The notes below the pieces were generated by a model. That model worked only from the letters and a program-made list of their open reading frames with translations. It was not told where the DNA came from and searched no databases. A program made the translations under genes and the position numbers. From Billgrantia saliphila (lineage in GTDB: Bacteria; Pseudomonadota; Gammaproteobacteria; Pseudomonadales; Halomonadaceae): DNA of 64,000 nucleotides. The stretch covers positions 62,001 through 126,000 of the forward strand of contig NZ_PJRN01000003.1 in assembly GCF_002930105.1 (NCBI RefSeq), written 5' to 3'. Shown one piece after another: positions 36,060 to 45,387 of this stretch; the first letter of the stretch is position 1; each line of letters opens with the position of its first letter.

Positions 36060-37973
36060 TCAGGTGGTCATTGGGCTCGCGTGAGCATCAAGCACGAGTT
36101 CATCCATAGGCATCGGACGGCCGAACAGGTAGCCTTGGAACGCCCCGCAGCCGTGCTCCAACAACCATTGATGCTGCGCCTCCGTTTCCACCCCTTCCGC
36201 CGTGACACCGAGCTTGAGGCTGGCTGCCAGGGTGATCGTGGTCGACACGATGGCGGCATCCACCGGATCTTCGAGTACCCCGTCGATGAACGACTTGTCG
36301 ATCTTCAATCCATGCAGGGGCAACCGCTTGAGGTAGTTCAGCGACGAGTATCCGGTACCGAAATCGTCCAGAGCGAAGCGAATGCCCAGCTTGCTCAGAC
36401 GCAGCATGATGTTGCGTACCCGCTCGGGATCTTCCATCAACAGACTTTCGGTGACTTCGAGCACCAGACGACTGGGGTCGGCTCCTGTCGACTCGAGCGT
36501 ATGCTGCACCCTGGCGATGAAGTCGGTCTGATGGAACTGAACCGAGCTGACATTGACCGCGATGGTCAACGCCTGTCGGTTATGATCGCCGGCCCACGTC
36601 GCCAACTGTCGGCACGCCCGCTCGAGTACCCAGTAACCGATCGGCAGGATCATTCGATTCTTCTCCGCCAAGGGAATGAATTGGCTCGGCGGGACCAGAC
36701 CGCGCTGGGGATGTTCCCAGCGTATCAGCGCTTCGACCCCAGTCACCCGCGACCGCTCGTCGACCTGAATCTGGTAGTGCAGACGCAGCTCGTCGCGGAC
36801 GATGGCCTGATGCAGATCGGCCTCGAGATGAACGCGTGCCATCACGTCGGCTTGCATGTCGGAGTTGAAGAACCGCATCGTATTGCCTCCGGCAGCCTTG
36901 GCCTGCTGCAAGGCAATATCGGCTTGGCGCATGGCGCCGTCGACATTAGCTTGTCCATTGGCGAAAAGGGTGATGCCGATGCTGGCGCTAACCGGCAGCG
37001 GCAGCGTGTTGTCATCGGATTGGGCGCTGGCGATCTGTACCAGCAGCTTCTCGGCCACGCGCTCGGCGGCGTGAGCCGCCCGTTCGACGTCCAGCCCCAA
37101 GTCATGAATCAACAGCACGAACTCATCGGCTCCCAGACGGGCCAGGGTGTCGCTTTCGCGCACCGTTTCCTCCAGGCTGTGGGCCACCCGTCGCAACAAT
37201 CGGTCGCCGCGCTGCAATCCCTGGGTCTCGTTTATGACTTTGAAATCGTCAAGATCGATGAACAGCAGCGCCGCATAGCGCTCACTGCGTCGAGTGCCCC
37301 GCACGACCATTTCGAGCCGGTCGAACAGCAGGCGGCGGTTGGGTAACCCCGTCAAGGGATCATAGAAAGTGAGCCGGTACTTGCTCTCCTGGATGTCGCG
37401 GAATTCGCTGATATCGGTAGAAATGCCGCAGAGCGCCTGGATTACTCCATTGGCATCACGCAGCGGCAGCTTGACCGTCAGGAAAGGGCCAAGACGGTCG
37501 TCGGCCCCCAGGAAGCGTTCCTCTTCAGCTACGACCTTCTCGCCCTGCTCGAGTACGCGCCGGTCGTCGACGTGCAGTTCCGCCGCAACGCTCGCATCGA
37601 AGAGCTCGGCATCGGTGCTGCCGAGAATGACCTCGGCAGGTCGATCCAGTACTTCGGTAACGCGTCGATTGACATACTGATAGCGATAATCGGCCGATTT
37701 GATGTAGATGCAGGCGTCCACATTGTCGAGGATGGTCGCCAGTTCATCCTTGGCGGCCCGCTGATAGGCCGCCTCACGCTTGAATCGGCGCCGATGGCGA
37801 CGTGCCCATGCCACGACAAGCACGAGTACTATCGCAAGTGCTGACAAGCCCCAGCCGAAGGCAGGCGTTGGCGGAATGCCGCTCGGGGAGGCGGAAGTGA
37901 TCGATGGCAGACCAGCCAGTATCCCTGCGTACGCAAACCGACAAGCCCTCCACAGCCAGTCAGAAATGGACAT
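36060..37973 (-). CDS. PAS-GGDEF-EAL membrane protein (c-di-GMP turnover)
   Basis: 637 residues. N-terminal hydrophobic segments (residues about 12-30 and 40-60), a PAS domain (ILDNVDACIYIKSADYRYQY to about 200), a GGDEF domain (YDPLTGLPNRRLLFDRLEMV) and an EAL domain. The GGDEF signature reads GADEF, so cyclase activity is uncertain. The EAL side keeps EALIRWEH, NVSSVQFH, EVTESLL, DDFGTGYSSLNYLKRLP, KIDKSFI and EGVET, all residues expected for c-di-GMP hydrolysis. Most likely a phosphodiesterase, possibly bifunctional. Monocistronic; upstream lies the CsrA-sponge RNA region. Confidence 0.92.
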   Translation of the reverse strand: MSISDWLWRACRFAYAGILAGLPSITSASPSGIPPTPAFGWGLSALAIVLVLVVAWARRHRRRFKREAAYQRAAKDELATILDNVDACIYIKSADYRYQYVNRRVTEVLDRPAEVILGSTDAELFDASVAAELHVDDRRVLEQGEKVVAEEERFLGADDRLGPFLTVKLPLRDANGVIQALCGISTDISEFRDIQESKYRLTFYDPLTGLPNRRLLFDRLEMVVRGTRRSERYAALLFIDLDDFKVINETQGLQRGDRLLRRVAHSLEETVRESDTLARLGADEFVLLIHDLGLDVERAAHAAERVAEKLLVQIASAQSDDNTLPLPVSASIGITLFANGQANVDGAMRQADIALQQAKAAGGNTMRFFNSDMQADVMARVHLEADLHQAIVRDELRLHYQIQVDERSRVTGVEALIRWEHPQRGLVPPSQFIPLAEKNRMILPIGYWVLERACRQLATWAGDHNRQALTIAVNVSSVQFHQTDFIARVQHTLESTGADPSRLVLEVTESLLMEDPERVRNIMLRLSKLGIRFALDDFGTGYSSLNYLKRLPLHGLKIDKSFIDGVLEDPVDAAIVSTTITLAASLKLGVTAEGVETEAQHQWLLEHGCGAFQGYLFGRPMPMDELVLDAHASPMTT

Positions 37974-38353: not shown

Positions 38354-38500
38354 AAAAAAAGCCCGGCCTTGCGGCCGGGCTGCATCTTCGCTTCCTTGCT
38401 TAACCTCCTCGAGCCTCCTGCTCGAGCCTCCCTGGGCATGAGTCGTCCTGACTCGGTCTTCCCTGATGAGCTTCCGTTGCCCATGGAGGTAGAATGACAG
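38354..38500 (-). ncRNA. CsrB/RsmX-Y-Z-type CsrA-sequestering RNA, copy 1
   Basis: On the minus strand about 147 nt with seven GGA motifs, several in hairpin loops: GAGTC-AGGAC-GACTC and CTCGAGC-AGGA-GGCTCGAG. It ends in AGCCCGGCC-GCAA-GGCCGGGCT followed by seven T, a strong terminator. An 18-bp GacA-type palindrome lies upstream (38540-38557), with the block CTTATCCCATGTTA between. Three similar copies lie at 38.7, 42.6 and 45.2 kb. GGA-in-loop arrays are the hallmark of RNAs that titrate the translational repressor CsrA/RsmA. The 5' end is estimated from alignment of the four copies. Confidence 0.85.
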
Positions 38501-38539
38501 CCTTGGGGCAGACTGTACGTAACATGGGATAAGCCGCTT

Positions 38540-38557
38540 TGTACGATATTTGCTACA
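38540..38557 (-). promoter_or_regulatory. GacA-type upstream activating sequence, sponge RNA copy 1
   Basis: Reads TGTAGC-N6-CGTACA on the minus strand, matching the palindromic GacA box TGTAAG-N6-CTTACA in layout and in TGTA/TACA ends. Six bases separate it from the conserved block CTTATCC found at the same place in all four copies. Confidence 0.7.
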
Positions 38558-38661
38558 TCGAACGTAGGAGATGCCACTTCGGGGATTTACTTCAGCAATG
38601 CCATAAAAACGCAAGACCGTCGAGCCAGACCCGCTCGTACGCGAAAGCGTAATGCCTGTCC

Positions 38662-38689
38662 GTATAGCAGAGCCAAGGCTCTGCTATAC
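38662..38689. repeat. 13-bp perfect inverted repeat
   Basis: GTATAGCAGAGCC, a two-base gap AA, then its exact complement. It lies between sponge RNA copies 1 and 2, some 105 bases upstream of the copy 1 activator box. No T-tract follows on either strand, so it is not a plain terminator; an operator or a small palindromic repeat are alternatives. Confidence 0.6.
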
Positions 38690-38705
38690 ACTCTATGAGG
38701 CGCCC

Positions 38706-38848
38706 AAAAGAAAACCCGGCCTTGCGGCCGGGCAAAATCTTCGCTTCCCTACATTCACCTCGAACGTCCTTTGCTCGAGCATCCCTGGAGCTGAGTCGTC
38801 CTGACTCGATCATCCCTGATAAGCCTCCATGCTCATGGGGCCACTCTG
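38706..38848 (-). ncRNA. CsrB/RsmX-Y-Z-type CsrA-sequestering RNA, copy 2
   Basis: About 143 nt on the minus strand with six GGA motifs, including the shared hairpin GAGTC-AGGAC-GACTC and the following GGGATGCTCGAGC stem. The terminator is CCCGGCC-GCAA-GGCCGGG followed by TTTTCTTTT. The region GGGAAGCGAAGAT just before the terminator is almost identical in copies 1 to 3. A likely -10 is TTAAGC near 38854-38859. GacA box at 38892-38909. Lies immediately downstream of the LysR gene on the same strand but has its own promoter elements. Confidence 0.85.
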
Positions 38849-38891
38849 ACAGCTTAAGGCTGAAGCGCCTTTAACCTGGGATAAGCGGCTT

Positions 38892-38909
38892 TGTAGGAAA
38901 TCGGCTACA
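38892..38909 (-). promoter_or_regulatory. GacA-type upstream activating sequence, sponge RNA copy 2
   Basis: TGTAGC-N6-CCTACA on the minus strand, a near-perfect palindrome. It ends eight bases from the stop codon of the LysR gene and sits six bases from the CTTATCCCAGGTTA block. Confidence 0.75.
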
Positions 38910-38916
38910 AAGAACG

Positions 38917-39897
38917 TCAGCCATTGGCTACGAACAAGCAATCTTTAGAAGAGGCCGATTGCGTTTCTGCGCCATCAGCGACTTTCACTCTGAGATCCAG
39001 CTCCTCGAGATAGCTCTCCAGCACCAGGTTGGGCGGAGCCCCCTTACGCGTGATGGCGCTGTAGTGGGTGAGGTAGTGCCAACGTTCGGGGTTCAGGGCA
39101 CGCATGCGACCACTGCTCACCCAGCGCTCGGCGTAGTGGGTCGGTAGGTAGCCGATGTAGCGATTGGATAGGATGAGAAAGGCGATTCCCTCCCGATCCG
39201 TCGCCGAGGCGGCGGCCCGGAGGGGCTCGTGGAGCGCCTTGATTTCGGGGGTCTGGGCGTACGCTGGGACCACGGCGTCGCAGTTCGCCAAGTGTCGCTC
39301 GCCCACCTCCTCGGTATCGTACAGGGGATGGCCGGAGGCGCAATAGAGCTGCGAGGTCTCCGCGTATAGCGGGAGGTAATCGAGCCCGGGCAGGCTCTTC
39401 AATGCCGGGATCACGCCGGTATGCAGGCGTCCATCCAGCACGGCCAACTCGATGTCGCTGGGTGGGATCATGCGGATATTGATGCGCACCTCCGGGCCGC
39501 GCTCCTTCAACGCGCTGAGGGCGTTGGTGATATGCATCTCGGGCATGGTCACCAGGTTGTCGGTGATGCCGATATTGAGCTCGCCCTTGAGCCAGGCATG
39601 CAGTCCGTTGACCCGGGTGCGAAACCCCTCCACCGCAGCCAGCAGTTGCATGGTGGCCTCGTAGACTTCCGCCCCTTCATCGGTCAGGGAGAAACCGCTG
39701 CGCCCGCGCTGGCACAACCGCAGACCGAGTCGCGTCTCGAGATCGTTCATCGCCATGCTGATGGCGGCGCGGCTGATGTTCAGTTCCACCTCGGCGGCGG
39801 AGAAACCACCGCATTCGACCACCTTTCGGTAGATCTTCAGCAGGCGCAGATCGGCATCGCTGGGCTGGGCCGACAGGGCCTCCTTGCGGCGTGACAT
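38917..39897 (-). CDS. LysR family transcriptional regulator
   Basis: 326 residues. The N-terminal winged helix-turn-helix is at about 14-75 (LLKIYRKVVECGGFSAAEVE, then LNISRAAISMAMNDLETRLG), followed by the effector domain from about 105 (LNIGITDNLVTMPEMHITNA). Divergent from the transaminase gene at 40070, with a 172-base AT-rich gap, the classical arrangement for a LysR protein controlling its neighbour. The inducer is unknown; an amino acid or omega-amino acid is a reasonable guess from the partner gene. Its stop is eight bases from the sponge RNA activator box, so the two units are tightly packed. Confidence 0.9.
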   Translation of the reverse strand: MSRRKEALSAQPSDADLRLLKIYRKVVECGGFSAAEVELNISRAAISMAMNDLETRLGLRLCQRGRSGFSLTDEGAEVYEATMQLLAAVEGFRTRVNGLHAWLKGELNIGITDNLVTMPEMHITNALSALKERGPEVRINIRMIPPSDIELAVLDGRLHTGVIPALKSLPGLDYLPLYAETSQLYCASGHPLYDTEEVGERHLANCDAVVPAYAQTPEIKALHEPLRAAASATDREGIAFLILSNRYIGYLPTHYAERWVSSGRMRALNPERWHYLTHYSAITRKGAPPNLVLESYLEELDLRVKVADGAETQSASSKDCLFVANG

Positions 39898-40069
39898 GGG
39901 CGTTTCCTTCCGTCATGACGTTCGGCTTCGAGGGTATCGCTGCCAGAGAAGAAAGTTAAGCAATGGGTTGCGTGAGATTAAAAACTTCTGGATTTAACTT
40001 ATCGTCACCCCGATCTAGCCTGTCTTCATATAGTCACCAATAACAGCAATGCCATCAGAGGGCGCTGCC

Positions 40070-41413
40070 ATGACAGTTCAACAACCCCCAGGGGCTGCCG
40101 GCCTGAGCCAGGAACAGCTGGATGCCTACTGGATGCCCTATACAGGCAACCGCCAGTTCAAGCGCGACCCGCGCATCATCGTAAGCGCCGAAGGCAGTTA
40201 CTTCACCGACGCCGACGGTCGCCGCATCTTCGATGCCCTCTCCGGCCTGTGGACCTGCGGCGCCGGTCACTGTCGCCCCGAGATCGCCGGAGCCGTGAAT
40301 CAGCAGCTGCAGCAGCTGGACTACGCCCCGGCGTTCCAGTATGGCCACCCCAAGGCCTTCGAACTGGCGCATCGCATGCGCGGGCTGACCCCGCAAGGGC
40401 TCGACTACGTGTTCTTCACCGGCTCCGGCTCCGAGAGCGCCGACACCGCGCTGAAGATCGCGCGCGCCTATTGGCGCAAGAAGGGCAAGCCGACCAAGAC
40501 CAAGCTGATCGGTCGTGCCAAGGGCTATCATGGCGTCAACTTCGGTGGCTTCAGCCTGGGCGGCATCGCCGCCAATCGCACCATCTTCGGCCAGGGCGTC
40601 GATGCCGACCACCTGCCCCATACCCTGCTCGCCGAGAACGCCTTCTCCAAGGGCATGCCCGAGCGCGGCGCCGAACGCGCCGAGGAGCTACTGGAGCTGA
40701 TCGCCCTGCACGACGCTTCCAACATCGCTGCGGTGATCGTCGAGCCCCTGGCCGGTTCGGCCGGGGTGATCCCACCGCCCAAGGGCTACCTGCAGCGCCT
40801 GCGCGAAATCTGCGATGCGCACGACATTCTGCTGATCTTCGACGAAGTCATCACCGGCTTCGGCCGCATGGGCGCGATGACCGGTGCCGAGGAATTCGGC
40901 GTGGTACCGGACATCATGAACGTGGCCAAGCAGTTGACCAACGGCGCGGTACCCATGGGCGCGGTGATCGTGCAAAACGCGATTTACCAGACCTTCATGG
41001 AACAGGGCGGCCCCGACTACATGCTCGAGCTGCCCCACGGCTACACCTACTCTGGCCATCCGGTGGCCTGCGCCGCGGCGCTCGCGGCCCTGGATGTGCT
41101 CGAGAACGATCGCCTGATCGAGCGCGTGCGGGAGATGAGCCCGGTCTTCGAGGAGTCGCTTCATGGCCTCAAGGGAACTCGCTACATCACCGATATCCGC
41201 AACTACGGTCTCGCCGGCGCCCTGCAGATCGAACCCTACCCCGGCGAGCCTGCCCGGCGCCCTTTCGAGATCGCCATGAAGTGCTGGGAGAAAGGCTTCT
41301 ACGTACGCTACGGCGGCGACACCATTCAGCTCGGCCTGCCCTTCATCGTCGAGCGCGACGAGATCGACCGCCTGATCAACGTTCTTGGCGACGCGCTAGA
41401 CGAACTCGACTGA
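40070..41413 (+). CDS. Class III PLP aminotransferase (omega-amino acid--pyruvate type)
   Basis: 447 residues from ATG 40070, preceded by AGAGGGCGCTGCC; the ATG at 40049 has no ribosome site. Motifs: YWMPYTGNRQFKRDPR near the N-terminus (typical of beta-alanine/omega-amino acid:pyruvate transaminases), FFTGSGSESADTALKIARAY, GRAKGYHGVNFGGFSLGG, LLIFDEVITGFGRMG and the PLP-lysine region NVAKQLTNGAVPMGAVIV. It would transfer an amino group from an omega-amino acid or amine to pyruvate. Single gene controlled probably by the divergent LysR protein. Confidence 0.92.
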   Translation: MTVQQPPGAAGLSQEQLDAYWMPYTGNRQFKRDPRIIVSAEGSYFTDADGRRIFDALSGLWTCGAGHCRPEIAGAVNQQLQQLDYAPAFQYGHPKAFELAHRMRGLTPQGLDYVFFTGSGSESADTALKIARAYWRKKGKPTKTKLIGRAKGYHGVNFGGFSLGGIAANRTIFGQGVDADHLPHTLLAENAFSKGMPERGAERAEELLELIALHDASNIAAVIVEPLAGSAGVIPPPKGYLQRLREICDAHDILLIFDEVITGFGRMGAMTGAEEFGVVPDIMNVAKQLTNGAVPMGAVIVQNAIYQTFMEQGGPDYMLELPHGYTYSGHPVACAAALAALDVLENDRLIERVREMSPVFEESLHGLKGTRYITDIRNYGLAGALQIEPYPGEPARRPFEIAMKCWEKGFYVRYGGDTIQLGLPFIVERDEIDRLINVLGDALDELD

Positions 41414-41563
41414 GCATGCGGTTTGGCAACGTCGCCCATGCCAAGCCGAAGACAAAGGCACCGCAAAGAAAGCTCACCTAAGGGCACATAGAATAACTTT
41501 GCGATTGCCGCCTTGGTGCCATGCTGGTTGACAGGATAATGACGTTTGCGACAAGGAGGTTGC

Positions 41564-41692
41564 ATGCGATTCCCGCCAACGCGTCCCGATGCACTCCATC
41601 CCGCCCACCCCTATCCTGCCTTCCTCCAAGGCATCGTCTTCGCGGCTTTGCCTTGGAATGGCGCGGACAGGTCCCAGGAGGATGAAGAGTGA
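41564..41692 (+). CDS. Small leader ORF, 42 aa, coupled to the hydrolase gene
   Basis: ATG 41564 has an excellent ribosome site (ACAAGGAGGTTGC). The peptide begins MRFPPTRPDALHPAHPYPAF and ends SQEDEE; the TGA at 41690-41692 overlaps the GTG start of the hydrolase (GTGA). A possible promoter is TTGGTG (41513-41518) and GATAAT (41535-41540), 16 bases apart. I know no homologue. It may be a true small protein or a translational leader. The rest of 41414-41563 shows nothing else. Confidence 0.45.
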   Translation: MRFPPTRPDALHPAHPYPAFLQGIVFAALPWNGADRSQEDEE

Positions 41693-42567
41693 AATCGGAC
41701 TGGAACGACACTCGTCATGACGTGAATGGGTTGGCCCTGCATTGGGTCGAGGCTGGCCCGCCAAAAGGGCCCTTGCTCATTCTGCTGCATGGGTTTCCCG
41801 AGTTCTGGTGGGGCTGGCATCATCACATAACCCCGCTGGCGGAGCAGGGCTTTCACGTGATTGCCCTCGACATGCGAGGCTACAACCTCAGCGACGCGCC
41901 ACAGGAAATCGACGCCTATCGGCTCGATGCCCTGGTCGCTGATGTGGTGGCGTTGGCCGACCATCACGGTGCAGAGAGTTTCCAACTGGTGGGGCATGAC
42001 TGGGGCGGCGTGGTGGCCTGGAGTGTGGCAGCCAGACATCCGCAGCGTCTGACACGTCTCGTCGTCATGGCGGCGCCGCACCCTGGCCAGTGGACCCGTG
42101 AGGTCTTCAAACACCCCACCCAACTGGTGCGCAGCAGTTATGTCGCCCTGTTCCAGCTTCCCTGGCTGCCCGAAGCCTTGCTTCAGGGTTTCGGTTTCGC
42201 CAGCCTGCGCACCACCCTGATTGGCAGCGCCAACCCGAGCACGTTCTCGTCGGACGACCTGGCTCGCTATGCCGAAGCCTGGTCGCAGCCTGGCGCTCTC
42301 ACCGGCATGCTCAATTACTACCGCGCGCTACGTGAGCGTACTTCGTTCGACCACGCGGCGAGAATCGAGCCGCGTACACTCATATTATGGGGCGAGAAGG
42401 ATCGCTTCCTCGAAGCCCATCTGGCCCGCGCCGCACTCGAACTCTGCGACGATGCCCGGCTGGAGATCGTGCCTGGCACGACACACTGGCTGCATCATGA
42501 GGCACCGGAGCGAATCGGTACTCTGCTGGCCGGTTTCCTGAAGGCTGACAAGATGTCCCGGGCGTGA
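41689..42567 (+). CDS. Alpha/beta hydrolase (epoxide hydrolase/haloalkane dehalogenase-like)
   Basis: 292 residues with a GTG start at 41689 (AGGAGG seven bases upstream). Motifs: LHGFPEFWWGWHHHITPLAE (oxyanion hole HGFPE), VGHDWGGVVAWSVAARHPQR with Asp as nucleophile in the GHDWGG elbow, LWGEKDRFLEAHLA (acid) and TTHWLHHEAPERI (catalytic His). An Asp nucleophile plus HGFPE points to the epoxide hydrolase/dehalogenase branch rather than esterases. No signal peptide. Its end is followed within 26 bases by the terminator of the third sponge RNA, which may also stop this transcript. Confidence 0.9.
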   Translation: MKSDWNDTRHDVNGLALHWVEAGPPKGPLLILLHGFPEFWWGWHHHITPLAEQGFHVIALDMRGYNLSDAPQEIDAYRLDALVADVVALADHHGAESFQLVGHDWGGVVAWSVAARHPQRLTRLVVMAAPHPGQWTREVFKHPTQLVRSSYVALFQLPWLPEALLQGFGFASLRTTLIGSANPSTFSSDDLARYAEAWSQPGALTGMLNYYRALRERTSFDHAARIEPRTLILWGEKDRFLEAHLARAALELCDDARLEIVPGTTHWLHHEAPERIGTLLAGFLKADKMSRA

Positions 42568-42592
42568 GTCGTCTGAGGAGCCGGAAGCGGAC

Positions 42593-42738
42593 AAAAGAAA
42601 GCCCGGCCTTGCGGCCGGGCAAAATCTTCGCTTCCCTTCCTTCTGCCTCGAGCGTCCTGGTTGCTCGAGCATCCTTGGGGCTTGAGTCGTCCTGACTCGG
42701 TCTTCCCTGATGAGCCTCCCTGGCTCATGTGTGTAGCT
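42593..42738 (-). ncRNA. CsrB/RsmX-Y-Z-type CsrA-sequestering RNA, copy 3
   Basis: About 146 nt on the minus strand with seven GGA motifs; shares with copies 1 and 2 the segment CATCAGGGAAGACCGAGTCA and the AGGAC hairpin, then CTCGAGC...GGACGCTCGAG. The terminator is GCCCGGCC-GCAA-GGCCGGGC followed by TTTCTTTT. A -10-like TATAGC lies at 42744-42749. GacA-type box at 42784-42801. It lies between the convergent hydrolase gene and the AraC-type gene. Confidence 0.85.
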
Positions 42739-42783
42739 TGGCAGCTATAGCGGCATCTGTACCTAACCTGTGATAAGTGGACG

Positions 42784-42801
42784 CGTAAGAGATCGCCGAC
42801 A
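42784..42801 (-). promoter_or_regulatory. GacA-type upstream activating sequence, sponge RNA copy 3 (degenerate)
   Basis: TGTCGG-N6-CTTACG on the minus strand. One half fits the GacA consensus well and the other is weaker, so this copy may respond less. Spacing to the CTTATCACAGGTTA block is six bases, as in the other copies. Confidence 0.6.
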
Positions 42802-42850
42802 CGTGGTGTCATCCAGCACGCCCCCTTGCCGGAGCGGCTCCGCTCGATGT

Positions 42851-43753
42851 TCACGAGGCGTCCAGCGCCCGCTCCTCCCGTCGGTGCCGAAGCGGCGAAA
42901 TTCCGAAGTAGCGTTTGTAGTCCCGGCTGAACTGGGACACGCTGCGATAACCAACGCGAATCGCCACCTGATTGACGTTGCACGCCTCCTGGCTGAGCAA
43001 CTGCTGGGCCTTGATCAGGCGTAATCGCTTCACGTACTGCAGCGGCGAAGCCTGAGCGATTTGCCTGAAGTGCTGATGAAAAGTCGAGGGGCTCATGCTG
43101 GCCTGACGGGCCATCGATTCCACCGATATCTCTTCAGCGAAGTCGGCGTGCAGCCGGGAGAGCACCCGGACGATACGCGAATAGTTACCCTGATGACGCA
43201 CCAGGGCGCGCAGCGCCGGCCCCTGCTCCCCCTTCAACGCCTCGAAGACGACGTCCCTGACTCGGCTCTCGCCCATGATCGACGTCTCGGCAGAATCGTG
43301 CAGGGTTCGCAGCAGTCGGACCACCGCCCCGTGCATGCCCTCAGTCATCGTCACCGAAGCCATGGGCACCGGATCCGGGCCGCTCTCCACCGGCCCCGCC
43401 TCTTCCATTGCCGCCACCATCTCGCCGAGCAGCGCCGGATCGAGGCGCACGGCCAATCCCAGCATGGGCGCGTTGCAAGTGGCAAACGTCTCGCACTCGA
43501 AGGGCAGCGGTAGCGTCTGGACCAGGTAATGGCCCGGCCCGTATTGGATCTCGCGATCGCCGAGATAACCGATCTTGTTGCCCTGGGCGATAACAAACAG
43601 GCCCGGCTCGTAGATCAGCGGCGTACGCGGCCGCGGGCGATGCATGGCCATCAACGACACGCCGGCTAGCGAAGTCGCGGTGAAGCCCTCCCGCTCGGCC
43701 AGCGGGGCAAGCAGGCCAACCAGCTCGTCGACCGGGGTCGGTGGTATCGCCAT
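42851..43753 (-). CDS. AraC family transcriptional regulator (AraC_N type)
   Basis: 300 residues. The N-terminal effector domain (PLIYEPGLFVIAQGNKIGYL, YLVQTLPLPFECETFA) is of the AraC_N/YqhC type; the C-terminal two helix-turn-helix units include ISVESMARQASMSPSTFHQH and VNQVAIRVGYRSVSQFSRDY. In E. coli the similar YqhC controls an aldehyde reductase gene next to it. Here the divergent neighbour is also an alcohol dehydrogenase/aldehyde reductase, so control of that gene in response to aldehydes is a fair inference. Confidence 0.9.
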   Translation of the reverse strand: MAIPPTPVDELVGLLAPLAEREGFTATSLAGVSLMAMHRPRPRTPLIYEPGLFVIAQGNKIGYLGDREIQYGPGHYLVQTLPLPFECETFATCNAPMLGLAVRLDPALLGEMVAAMEEAGPVESGPDPVPMASVTMTEGMHGAVVRLLRTLHDSAETSIMGESRVRDVVFEALKGEQGPALRALVRHQGNYSRIVRVLSRLHADFAEEISVESMARQASMSPSTFHQHFRQIAQASPLQYVKRLRLIKAQQLLSQEACNVNQVAIRVGYRSVSQFSRDYKRYFGISPLRHRREERALDAS

Positions 43754-43924
43754 GACAGCACCCTCTATCTCTCTTGCCAGACATTATGACGGCTTTTTTC
43801 GTCTCAGGAGGAAGAAGAGCGCAGCCTTCCGGAGAAACGAGCAAAAATGCCGGAGGAACCTGCAACACCGCCCGCGTCTCCTCGACCATACTGGGCGCAC
43901 GTTAAACATCAAGAGGAGTGTGAC

Positions 43925-44980
43925 ATGAGCCAAACTCGCGCCTATGCGGCCTACGCCCCCGACCAGCTCCTGGCCCCCTTCCAGTTCGAGCGTCGCCAGC
44001 CGCGACCGGACGATGTTGCCATCGAAATCCTTTATTGCGGCGTCTGCCACAGCGACCTTCACTTCGCTCGCGACGACTGGGGCATGAGCCGCTATCCCGT
44101 CGTCCCCGGGCACGAGATCGTCGGACGCGTCATCGCCGTGGGCGACCAGGTTACGCGTTTCCAGGCGGGCGACCTGGTCGGCGTGGGCTGCATGGTCGAC
44201 TCCTGCCGCCATTGCCAGCCCTGCCGCGACGGTGTCGAGCAGTTCTGCCTCGAAGGCTTCACCATGACCTACGGCAGCGACGATCACCAGGACGGCACGC
44301 TGACCCAGGGCGGTTACTCGGACAACATCGTGGTCAGCGAGCGCTTCGTGCTGCGCATGCCTGAAGGCATCGATCTCGCTTCCGCCGCGCCGATCTTGTG
44401 CGCCGGCATCACCACCTACTCGCCGCTCAAGCACTACGGCGTGAAGGCCGGCCACAAGGTTGGGGTGATCGGCATGGGCGGGCTTGGCCACATGGGGGTC
44501 AAGCTGGCCAAGGCGCTGGGCGCCGAAGTGACCGTCTTCACCCGTTCCGAAAGCAAGGTCGATGAAGCCAGGGGGCATGGTGCCGACCACGTGGTCGTTT
44601 CCACCGACCTCGCCCAGATGGATGCCGTGGCCGAGACCTTCGACTTCATGCTCGACACCGTGCCGGTGCAGCACGACCTCAACCCCTACCTGGCGGCCCT
44701 GAAGTACGACGGCACCCACATCCTGGTCGGCCTGCTCGATCCCATCGAGCCCGCCATCAATGCTTTCAACCTGGTGTTCAAGCGCCGCGTGCTCGCGGGC
44801 TCACTGATCGGCGGCATCCAGGAGACCCAGGAGCTGCTGGACTTCTGCGCCGAGCACAACATTCGCTGCGACATCGAGATGCTCGATATTCACGACATCA
44901 ACGAAGCCTACGCGCGCATGGAGAAAGGCGACGTGCGCTACCGCTTCGTGATCGACATGGCGTCGTTGAAAAAGGCCTGA
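43925..44980 (+). CDS. Zinc-dependent alcohol dehydrogenase (CAD/YahK-type aldehyde reductase)
   Basis: 351 residues from ATG 43925 (AAGAGGAGTGTGAC upstream); the longer frame to 43847 lacks a ribosome site. Catalytic zinc ligands are in CGVCHSDLHFARDDWG and PGHEIVGRV; structural zinc Cys are in DSCRHCQPCRDGVEQFC. Nucleotide binding GMGGLGHMGVKLAKALGAE followed by FTRSESK suggests NADP(H). Relatives reduce a broad range of aldehydes. Probably controlled by the divergent AraC-type protein. Confidence 0.93.
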   Translation: MSQTRAYAAYAPDQLLAPFQFERRQPRPDDVAIEILYCGVCHSDLHFARDDWGMSRYPVVPGHEIVGRVIAVGDQVTRFQAGDLVGVGCMVDSCRHCQPCRDGVEQFCLEGFTMTYGSDDHQDGTLTQGGYSDNIVVSERFVLRMPEGIDLASAAPILCAGITTYSPLKHYGVKAGHKVGVIGMGGLGHMGVKLAKALGAEVTVFTRSESKVDEARGHGADHVVVSTDLAQMDAVAETFDFMLDTVPVQHDLNPYLAALKYDGTHILVGLLDPIEPAINAFNLVFKRRVLAGSLIGGIQETQELLDFCAEHNIRCDIEMLDIHDINEAYARMEKGDVRYRFVIDMASLKKA

Positions 44981-45000
44981 ACGTGTCACGCAAACGAAAG

Positions 45001-45023
45001 GACCCCGACCGATGGCCGGGGTC
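45001..45023 (+). terminator. Hairpin after the alcohol dehydrogenase gene
   Basis: GACCCCG and CGGGGTC enclose a nine-base loop, 20 bases past the stop. No T-tract follows on the plus strand, so it may be a weak or factor-assisted terminator. Between it and 45152 nothing else is recognisable. Confidence 0.5.
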
Positions 45024-45152
45024 AGGTGCGATGAGACGCGATATTTTGGCGAACCCGCAGGGAACGCGAAACCACAGCATCTCCCGCATCAGTATGGCCG
45101 TCTCGGCATGACCCAGCACTGAAGAGTACCGCTGCATCGAGTCGAGCCCGCC

Positions 45153-45302
45153 AAAGAAAAAGCCCGGCCACTAAGGCCGGGCTTTCTATCGACGCTTCCC
45201 TATCCAACCAACCTTGGGCATCCTGCCCAAGCGTCCTTGGGTATGAGCGTTCCGTCGCTCGACCTTCCGTGTTGGGCGATCCATTGCCCGATGCCTACAG
45301 CG
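45153..45302 (-). ncRNA. CsrB/RsmX-Y-Z-type CsrA-sequestering RNA, copy 4 (divergent)
   Basis: About 150 nt on the minus strand with seven GGA motifs. The primary sequence differs from copies 1-3 but the plan is the same: GGGC-AATGGATC-GCCC, GAGCG-ACGGAA-CGCTC and CTTGGGC-AGGAT-GCCCAAG hairpins, then GGGAAGCG, then terminator AAAGCCCGGCC-TTAG-TGGCCGGGCTTT with more T. Covariation of stems with conserved GGA loops supports a real RNA. Two GacA-type boxes lie upstream at 45348-45387. Confidence 0.85.
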
Positions 45303-45347
45303 TGGCACAGATGAACGGATCCAGTGTTAACCGAGGATAAACTTCCA

Positions 45348-45387
45348 TGTAAGAAATTGCTGTGACTTATGTAGGATAAAACTTACA
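45348..45387 (-). promoter_or_regulatory. Tandem GacA-type boxes, sponge RNA copy 4
   Basis: Two sites: 45370-45387 reads TGTAAG-N6-CCTACA on the minus strand, nearly the full GacA consensus. 45348-45365 reads TCACAG-N6-CTTACA and holds the position occupied by the single box in the other copies, six bases from the TTTATCC block. A double box may give stronger or graded activation. Confidence 0.75.

Follow-up and report, generated by a model that had tools for sequence, protein, structure and literature searches.

RsmZ of Pseudomonas is under the control of GacA, and RNAs of the CsrB type are longer. In Azotobacter vinelandii, RsmZ1-7 and RsmY1-2 are listed beside RsmA in a review table (PMC7366521), and the Rsm RNAs are described as GacA-dependent (PMC4824345). 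Tandem rsmX-1/rsmX-2 genes of Pseudomonas brassicacearum and RsmX1-5 of P. syringae are presented in an article that also quotes a correlation between the number of sRNAs and that of Rsm proteins (PMC7911923). Another article describes tandem csrB2/csrB3 genes in Aeromonas salmonicida and the CsrB1-4 paralogues of Vibrio tasmaniensis, which fall into synteny groups, one being independent of the two-component system (PMC6262261). Halomonas anticariensis has GacS-GacA, and its mimic sRNA is given as 'Unknown' in the review table (PMC7366521). No prior report of the Billgrantia RNAs described here was found in the literature searched, and we interpret these predicted RNAs as CsrA-sequestering sponges of the same kind as RsmZ and CsrB, amplified so far that their number relative to CsrA is unusual.

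Covariance model R1 predicts four RNA genes, all on the minus strand and 133-140 nt long, in the window, which is the whole 64-kb stretch of DNA analysed. These are copy 1 at 38357..38490 (152 bits, 7 GGA motifs), copy 2 at 38710..38842 (132.8 bits, 6 GGA), copy 3 at 42597..42734 (140.5 bits, 7 GGA) and copy 4, a diverged subtype, at 45158..45297 (127.5 bits, 7 GGA). The limits of copy 1 are the boundaries of model R1, and its real 5' end probably lies a few nucleotides further inside. The number of RNAs in the window, their strand and their 6-7 GGA motifs are thus as the first-pass annotation had given them, whereas its length of about 145 nt is too long. The GGGAAGCG element had been assigned to all four RNAs; copies 2, 3 and 4 have it unaltered, but copy 1 reads AGGAAGCG instead. 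Sequence and fold place the terminator hairpins on the minus strand at 38360..38381, 38715..38733, 42601..42620 and 45161..45183 for copies 1 to 4, and the CCCGGCC/GGCCGGG terminator with its T-tract is present in every copy, as originally described. A GacA-type box had also been noticed upstream of each copy, and indeed in all four cases a minus-strand box agreeing at 11 of 14 specified bases is found 58-59 nt ahead of the first base of the model, at 38540..38557, 38892..38909 and 42784..42801 for copies 1, 2 and 3 and at 45348..45365 for copy 4, which has a second, distal box with 12 of 14 bases at 45370..45387.

A PAS-GGDEF-EAL protein gene identified by Pfam (36060..37973, minus strand) neighbours copy 1, and this gene or its relatives have an RNA copy upstream on the same strand in 7 of the 15 compared genomes. 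This arrangement would suit cis-acting leaders or attenuators of adjoining genes such as the GGDEF-EAL gene. However, a strong terminator with a T-tract closes every window copy, the genes that come after copies 3 and 4 run in the opposite direction, and the next element after copy 2 is copy 1, so that a leader function is most unlikely.

Copies 1-3 are 81-86% identical to one another and 67-71% identical to copy 4, in which most stem substitutions are compensatory but one hairpin 1 pair is broken; the initial view of three similar copies and a diverged fourth with its stems kept is therefore borne out. In dinucleotide shuffling, 3, 6, 0 and 1 of 200 shuffles folded as well as copies 1, 2, 3 and 4, respectively, and when copies 1 and 4 are folded singly, their minimum-energy structures are without hairpin 1 of the consensus. 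Model R2 was built from 31 of the 35 R1 matches, leaving out two opposite-strand matches, L056 and one weak L050 match. In 31 copies drawn from five genomes, standard pairs fill 95.3% of the pair cells and 21 of the 26 pairs show two-sided changes, a number matched by 0 of 500 shuffles. Consistently, 24 extra copies from three sister-genus genomes, which were found with the model and were absent from its building set, have 93.9% of cells paired and two-sided changes at 23 of the 26 pairs (0/500 shuffles). Covariation in the 31 and again in the 24 copies supports the proposed selection on structure, and a conserved secondary structure is one of the properties expected of CsrA-sequestering sRNAs.

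Several GGA motifs at conserved loop or linker sites, another such property, are present as well, since GGA occurs in six common segments, all loops or linkers, each of them in 29-31 of the 31 copies. Against mononucleotide shuffles, no window copy shows a significant GGA excess by itself (p 0.064-0.148), and over 33 copies, which remain after two opposite-strand overlapping matches are dropped from the 35, p ranges from 0.010 to 0.414 and is mostly not significant. The motifs were then pooled, and the 31 copies together contain 232 GGA, whereas 1000 shuffles averaged 142.5 and never exceeded 171.

The genome has one csrA (CsrA equivalog, 122.1 bits against a cut-off of 73), as expected where CsrA-sequestering sRNAs occur, and a single csrA is found in 87 of 90 genomes of the genus, the three misses all being less than 90% complete. 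It also has one regulator matching the UvrY/SirA/GacA equivalog at 283.7 bits (cut-off 280) and a kinase for which the BarA model is the best match, yet at 615.8 bits, below the cut-off of 890. The first-pass annotation had held that absence of csrA and gacS/gacA homologues would refute its proposal; csrA, a regulator of the UvrY/GacA family and a BarA-like kinase are present. Boxes were scored against what we take to be the GacA-box consensus. Among 78 upstream stretches (80 matches minus two opposite-strand ones), 54 have a box with at least 10 of 14 bases, a score that 4.2% of shuffles attain, and 53 of the 54 boxes fall between -57 and -62 or between -79 and -85. Such a box precedes 6 of the genome's 11 copies; the five others score 8 or 9, and a score of 9 is also attained by 24% of the shuffles.

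These 11 copies, detected by the covariance model, include the four in the window and carry 86 GGA motifs in total against one csrA, so the original count of four paralogues understated the scale. Of the 90 genomes of this genus, 22 carry 4-11 copies, the named carriers being Billgrantia and its near relatives. Family-wide, 139 of 275 genomes have a match, often with one or two copies each, and in a sister genus three genomes yield 13-21 matches. Pairwise identity among the 11 copies is 59-86%, each copy is nearer to some copy in another compared genome than to its own paralogues, and many sit at gene positions shared between related genomes, so that the paralogues look old and the loci appear to have been kept, in line with the comparison of related genomes suggested at the outset. 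Repeats, mobile elements or strong terminators that had spread without any function could also account for the copy number, the tandem arrangement of some copies and the near constancy of the terminator, but the internal helices covary, and the copies have diverged and occupy shared positions in several genomes, making this explanation scarcely credible.

The csrA and gacA homologues, the covariation and the kept loci together support the sponge reading, and the four RNAs of the window, out of eleven paralogous predicted sRNAs, are very probably CsrA sponges, likely activated by GacA/UvrY through the upstream box. We infer that the RNAs are transcribed, bind CsrA and are controlled by GacA. 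The predicted GGA-bearing loops would bind CsrA dimers, and capture of CsrA on the RNAs would free its target mRNAs. The GacA/UvrY response regulator likely turns on transcription through the box, and several copies may jointly set the level of free CsrA. GGA-rich loops could instead pair with pyrimidine-rich stretches, as in base-pairing small RNAs of the Hfq or ProQ type that use GGA for RNA pairing. This is very unlikely, however, because the GGA segments stay constant while each helix shows two-sided changes, and because the upstream boxes, together with csrA and gacA, suit the Csr class.

Within the sponge reading, and not excluding it, the copies could be a matter of mere dosage, being interchangeable and simply adding CsrA sites, with no role peculiar to any one of them. 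The copies have their fold and their six GGA segments in common, and the four CsrB copies of V. tasmaniensis are reported as mostly redundant in a protease assay (PMC6262261). Nevertheless, the divergence of the 11 copies, their closer kinship to copies of other genomes, their shared gene positions and their variable upstream regions all weigh against mere dosage, which is possible but on balance doubtful. Since 5 of the 11 copies are without a good GacA box, it is most likely that the many copies give both dose and separate inputs. A wider hypothesis, which we regard as plausible rather than probable when all its parts are taken together, is that Csr in the Halomonadaceae forms a many-to-one switchboard in which one CsrA would face about a dozen separately promoted sponge genes. 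The sponges would be old paralogues at their own loci, some driven by GacA and some by other inputs; one sponge, of a second family, would be under a PhoB-like phosphate box; and the sister genus richest in copies would pair a sponge with an extra csrA in divergent cassettes. If this is true, CsrA activity would sum many independent signals, and evolution could tune it through the number of sponge copies. With 11 predicted sponges for one CsrA, the standing question of whether many sibling sponges are kept for dose or for separate inputs becomes testable.

The Rfam models for Csr and Rsm RNAs, named early on as a check, did not bear the proposal out at curated thresholds. No family of Rfam 15 passed its cut-off on the copies tested: no Csr/Rsm family was found in the window, nor in 20 loci that hold additional copies, and the same tool recovered E. 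coli CsrB at 380 bits. A lax threshold gave nine matches in the window, the best being PrrB_RsmZ on copy 3 at 25.8 bits against a cut-off of 44; the other eight, mainly resting on terminator hairpins, were set aside. RF00166 gave 13 weak matches over the 90 genus genomes, with none of the 90 above the cut-off, and since 14 control genomes also had no match above it, this run has no positive control. Eight of the 13 correspond, by pattern or coordinates, to a second, different RNA, two are copies of the sponge family (G068, G062) and three are neither. For our own models, 14 weak R1 matches and two weak R2 matches, other than L024, were also inspected: several were terminators or coding DNA and were dropped, and others led to the second RNA, which is captured by model R3.

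Compared with RsmZ/PrrB (RF00166), the Billgrantia RNAs are alike in length, GGA motifs and terminal hairpin, and copy 3 aligns over the whole model, whereas nothing in the window or in any of the 90 genus genomes passes its cut-off, and the copies number 11 here. With CsrB/RsmB of E. coli (RF00018) they share the proposed job, sequestration of CsrA via GGA, but CsrB is 369 nt long and has no window match at cut-off. The RNAs are natural candidates for the mimic sRNA of the group to which H. anticariensis belongs, for which coordinates and a covariance model are now supplied. The clustering of four copies was first thought to be unusual; tandem Csr/Rsm RNA genes do have precedents (PMC7911923, PMC6262261). 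As in P. brassicacearum and P. syringae, the predicted sponge genes are amplified and partly in tandem; unlike there, 11 RNAs per single csrA run contrary to the correlation as quoted (PMC7911923). The paralogues of V. tasmaniensis likewise form synteny groups, but are only four. A. vinelandii resembles Billgrantia in the description of its many Rsm RNAs, and the nine RNAs tabulated for it (PMC7366521) are exceeded by the 11 predicted sponges per CsrA found here and by the 13-21 matches in the three sister-genus genomes.

Four predicted RNAs, proposed to be CsrA sponges, are encoded on the minus strand of the window, copy 1 at 38357-38490, copy 2 at 38710-38842, copy 3 at 42597-42734 and copy 4 at 45158-45297, as delineated by the sequence, their alignment and R1, a covariance model of the four copies. 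In agreement with the first-pass annotation, which had described a shared plan of GGA hairpins, a common element and a terminator, the alignment has shown that each copy contains three hairpins whose loops carry GGA, and further GGA motifs in the linkers, and that all four carry a CCCGGCC/GGCCGGG terminator with a T-tract. The GGGAAGCG element is present in copies 2-4, and copy 1 has the variant AGGAAGCG. Copies 1-3 share 81-86% identity with one another and 67-71% with copy 4; the stems of copy 4 are largely kept through paired changes, such as GAGUC/GACUC to GAGCG/CGCUC, consistent with the claim that this copy diverged in bases and retained its stems. When each copy is folded as a single sequence, 3, 6, 0 and 1 of 200 dinucleotide shuffles are as good as copies 1-4, respectively, each copy beating most of them; for copies 1 and 4 folded in this way, the minimum-energy structure lacks hairpin 1.

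In the assembly that contains the window (47 contigs, 4.34 Mb), a search with R1 yields 11 strong matches: the four window copies, four further copies on the same contig (C32:241533-244456), two tandem copies (C44:238768 and 239075) and one copy at C9:31451. The next match (E 0.052) is the opposite strand of the terminator of one copy. R2, a model built from 31 copies out of five genomes, recovers the same 11. The four paralogues first described are present, but the total was understated.

Standard pairs fill 95.3% of the pair cells of the 31-copy alignment, which was fitted to the model and in which slid controls pair at 23-47%. Two-sided changes occur at 21 of the 26 pairs, and none of 500 shuffles matches any of the measures. 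Among 24 copies from three sister-genus genomes, absent from model building yet found with the model, 93.9% of pair cells are paired, with two-sided changes at 23 of 26 pairs. The covariation in both sets supports the earlier proposal of selection on structure. Six segments hold GGA in 29, 31, 29, 31, 31 and 31 of the 31 copies. GGA occurs 232 times in these copies, whereas 1000 shuffles average 142.5 and never exceed 171; the excess is mostly not significant when copies are shuffled one by one.

The GacA consensus TGTAAGNNATNNCTTACA was scored over the 160 nt upstream of 78 copies, with mononucleotide shuffles as controls. Ten of its 14 bases are reached by 54 of the 78 stretches (4.2% of shuffles) and 12 by 34 (0.08% of shuffles), and 53 of the 54 stretches scoring at least 10 have the box centred at -57 to -62 or -79 to -85. 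By this consensus, the GacA-type boxes proposed for the four window copies all score at least 11. Across the genome, 6 of the 11 copies have a box reaching 10 of 14; the remaining five attain 8-9, as do many shuffles, although in two of them the best partial match sits at the customary position of -59. By raw count, 61 of the 78 copies are preceded by a GTTA element, its commonest distance being 34 nt. The many copies may provide dose, separate inputs or both, and separate inputs are favoured in part because five copies lack good GacA boxes.

The partner genes expected by the first-pass annotation are found in part. A single csrA gene (66 aa, NCBIfam equivalog above cut-off) is present, together with one UvrY match at E 1e-20 or better and a UvrY/SirA/GacA equivalog match just above cut-off, whereas the 934-aa hybrid kinase has BarA as its best model with a score below the BarA cut-off; a second kinase match is shorter. 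A single csrA is found in 87 of 90 genus genomes, the three misses being less than 90% complete. In three genomes of a sister genus, which have 13-21 sponge hits and 3, 3 and 2 csrA genes, a sponge gene and an extra csrA are divergently oriented at a distance of about 155-162 nt (loci L178, G154:C12; L186, G159:C23; L187, G164:C28). Such pairing is not a general rule, because eight of the other nine genomes compared have one csrA and 2-10 sponge matches, and the ninth has two csrA genes, neither adjoining a sponge found there.

Scanning named genomes for an exact pattern gave 39 stretches, 28 of them from genomes named Billgrantia or Halomonas; the other 11, each a lone match in an unrelated bacterium, are probably due to chance. 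Within the GTDB genus, 26 of 90 genomes match R2 at E 0.001: 22 have 4-11 copies, one has two and three have a single copy. Two of these single-copy matches are weak, and the locus of one carries a different GGA-rich RNA. At the family level, 139 of 275 genomes match R2; high copy counts there are lower bounds, because 12 candidates were scored per genome. Rescoring with 150 candidates gives 21, 13 and 14 hits in three genomes of one sister genus; some of the 21 overlap, and ten regions taken from that richest genome hold 14 non-overlapping copies.

The second GGA-rich RNA, of about 127 nt and from a different family, occurs in 81 of the 90 genus genomes: 75 have one copy, five have two and one has three. 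Its single copy in B. saliphila lies on the minus strand at C1:137173-137296 (L206:3674-3797), downstream of a gene that by eye is trmJ-like; further loci are L194-L205. GTCA repeats 11 nt apart, a spacing and motif that we take to be PhoB-box-like, are found upstream of the RNA at all 12 loci examined. The second RNA may be a CsrA sponge under phosphate control.

In percent identity, every one of the 11 sponge copies is closer to some copy in another genome than to the other copies of its own. Since the comparison, over 15 genomes, sets 67 foreign copies against 10 own copies, narrow cases such as 70 versus 68% mean little. Judged from flanking gene families within 5 kb, the four window copies share flanks with B. 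pellis, in line with the alignment of related loci suggested earlier; the C32 cluster does so with up to seven genomes, the C44 pair with five and the C9 copy with two. The B. pellis partners of copies 3 and 4 are flanked by the same gene families as in the window; a hydrolase gene adjoining copy 3 is absent at its partner locus. For copy 1, none of the 7 B. pellis copies in the comparison (B. pellis has 10-11 hits in total) is a reciprocal best match, which suggests that copy 1 is a younger tandem duplicate. From the identities, the shared flanks and the unpartnered copy 1, we therefore take the set to be an old, retained family that has recently grown somewhat.

A sponge copy lies upstream of, and on the same strand as, a PAS-GGDEF-EAL gene (window 36060-37973), an arrangement seen in 7 of 15 genomes (also L045, L135, L138, L142, L145 and L159). 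A putative zinc metallo-peptidase gene (Peptidase_Mx, L152:5114-6181) closely follows the C9 copy in the same orientation, an association seen in two other genomes (L139, L162). A guanidine-II riboswitch aptamer (L039:3662-3712, minus strand; 41 bits, cut-off 32) lies about 114 nt downstream of a sponge copy on C32.

The anatomy of the RNAs and their partner genes are observed here, and each functional step is read by analogy with established Csr/Rsm systems: the sponges most likely work as the RNAs of those systems do, which are switched on by GacA, capture CsrA dimers with their GGA loops and thereby release the mRNAs that CsrA represses. A search with Rfam Csr/Rsm models had been suggested; the copies tested fall below every Rfam cut-off. 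These RNAs are unreported among the matches listed for the Halomonas Csr/Gac/sRNA literature, subscription papers being mostly outside that scope, and the portions available of PMC7366521, PMC12889724 and PMC13414033 do not mention them. In a review table, the mimic sRNA of Halomonas anticariensis is given as "Unknown", Azotobacter vinelandii has RsmZ1-7 and RsmY1-2, and P. syringae has RsmX1-5, RsmY and RsmZ (PMC7366521). The sponges likely do the same job as RsmZ and CsrB; in view of their Rfam scores and their extreme ratio to CsrA, we read them as a variant of that kind.
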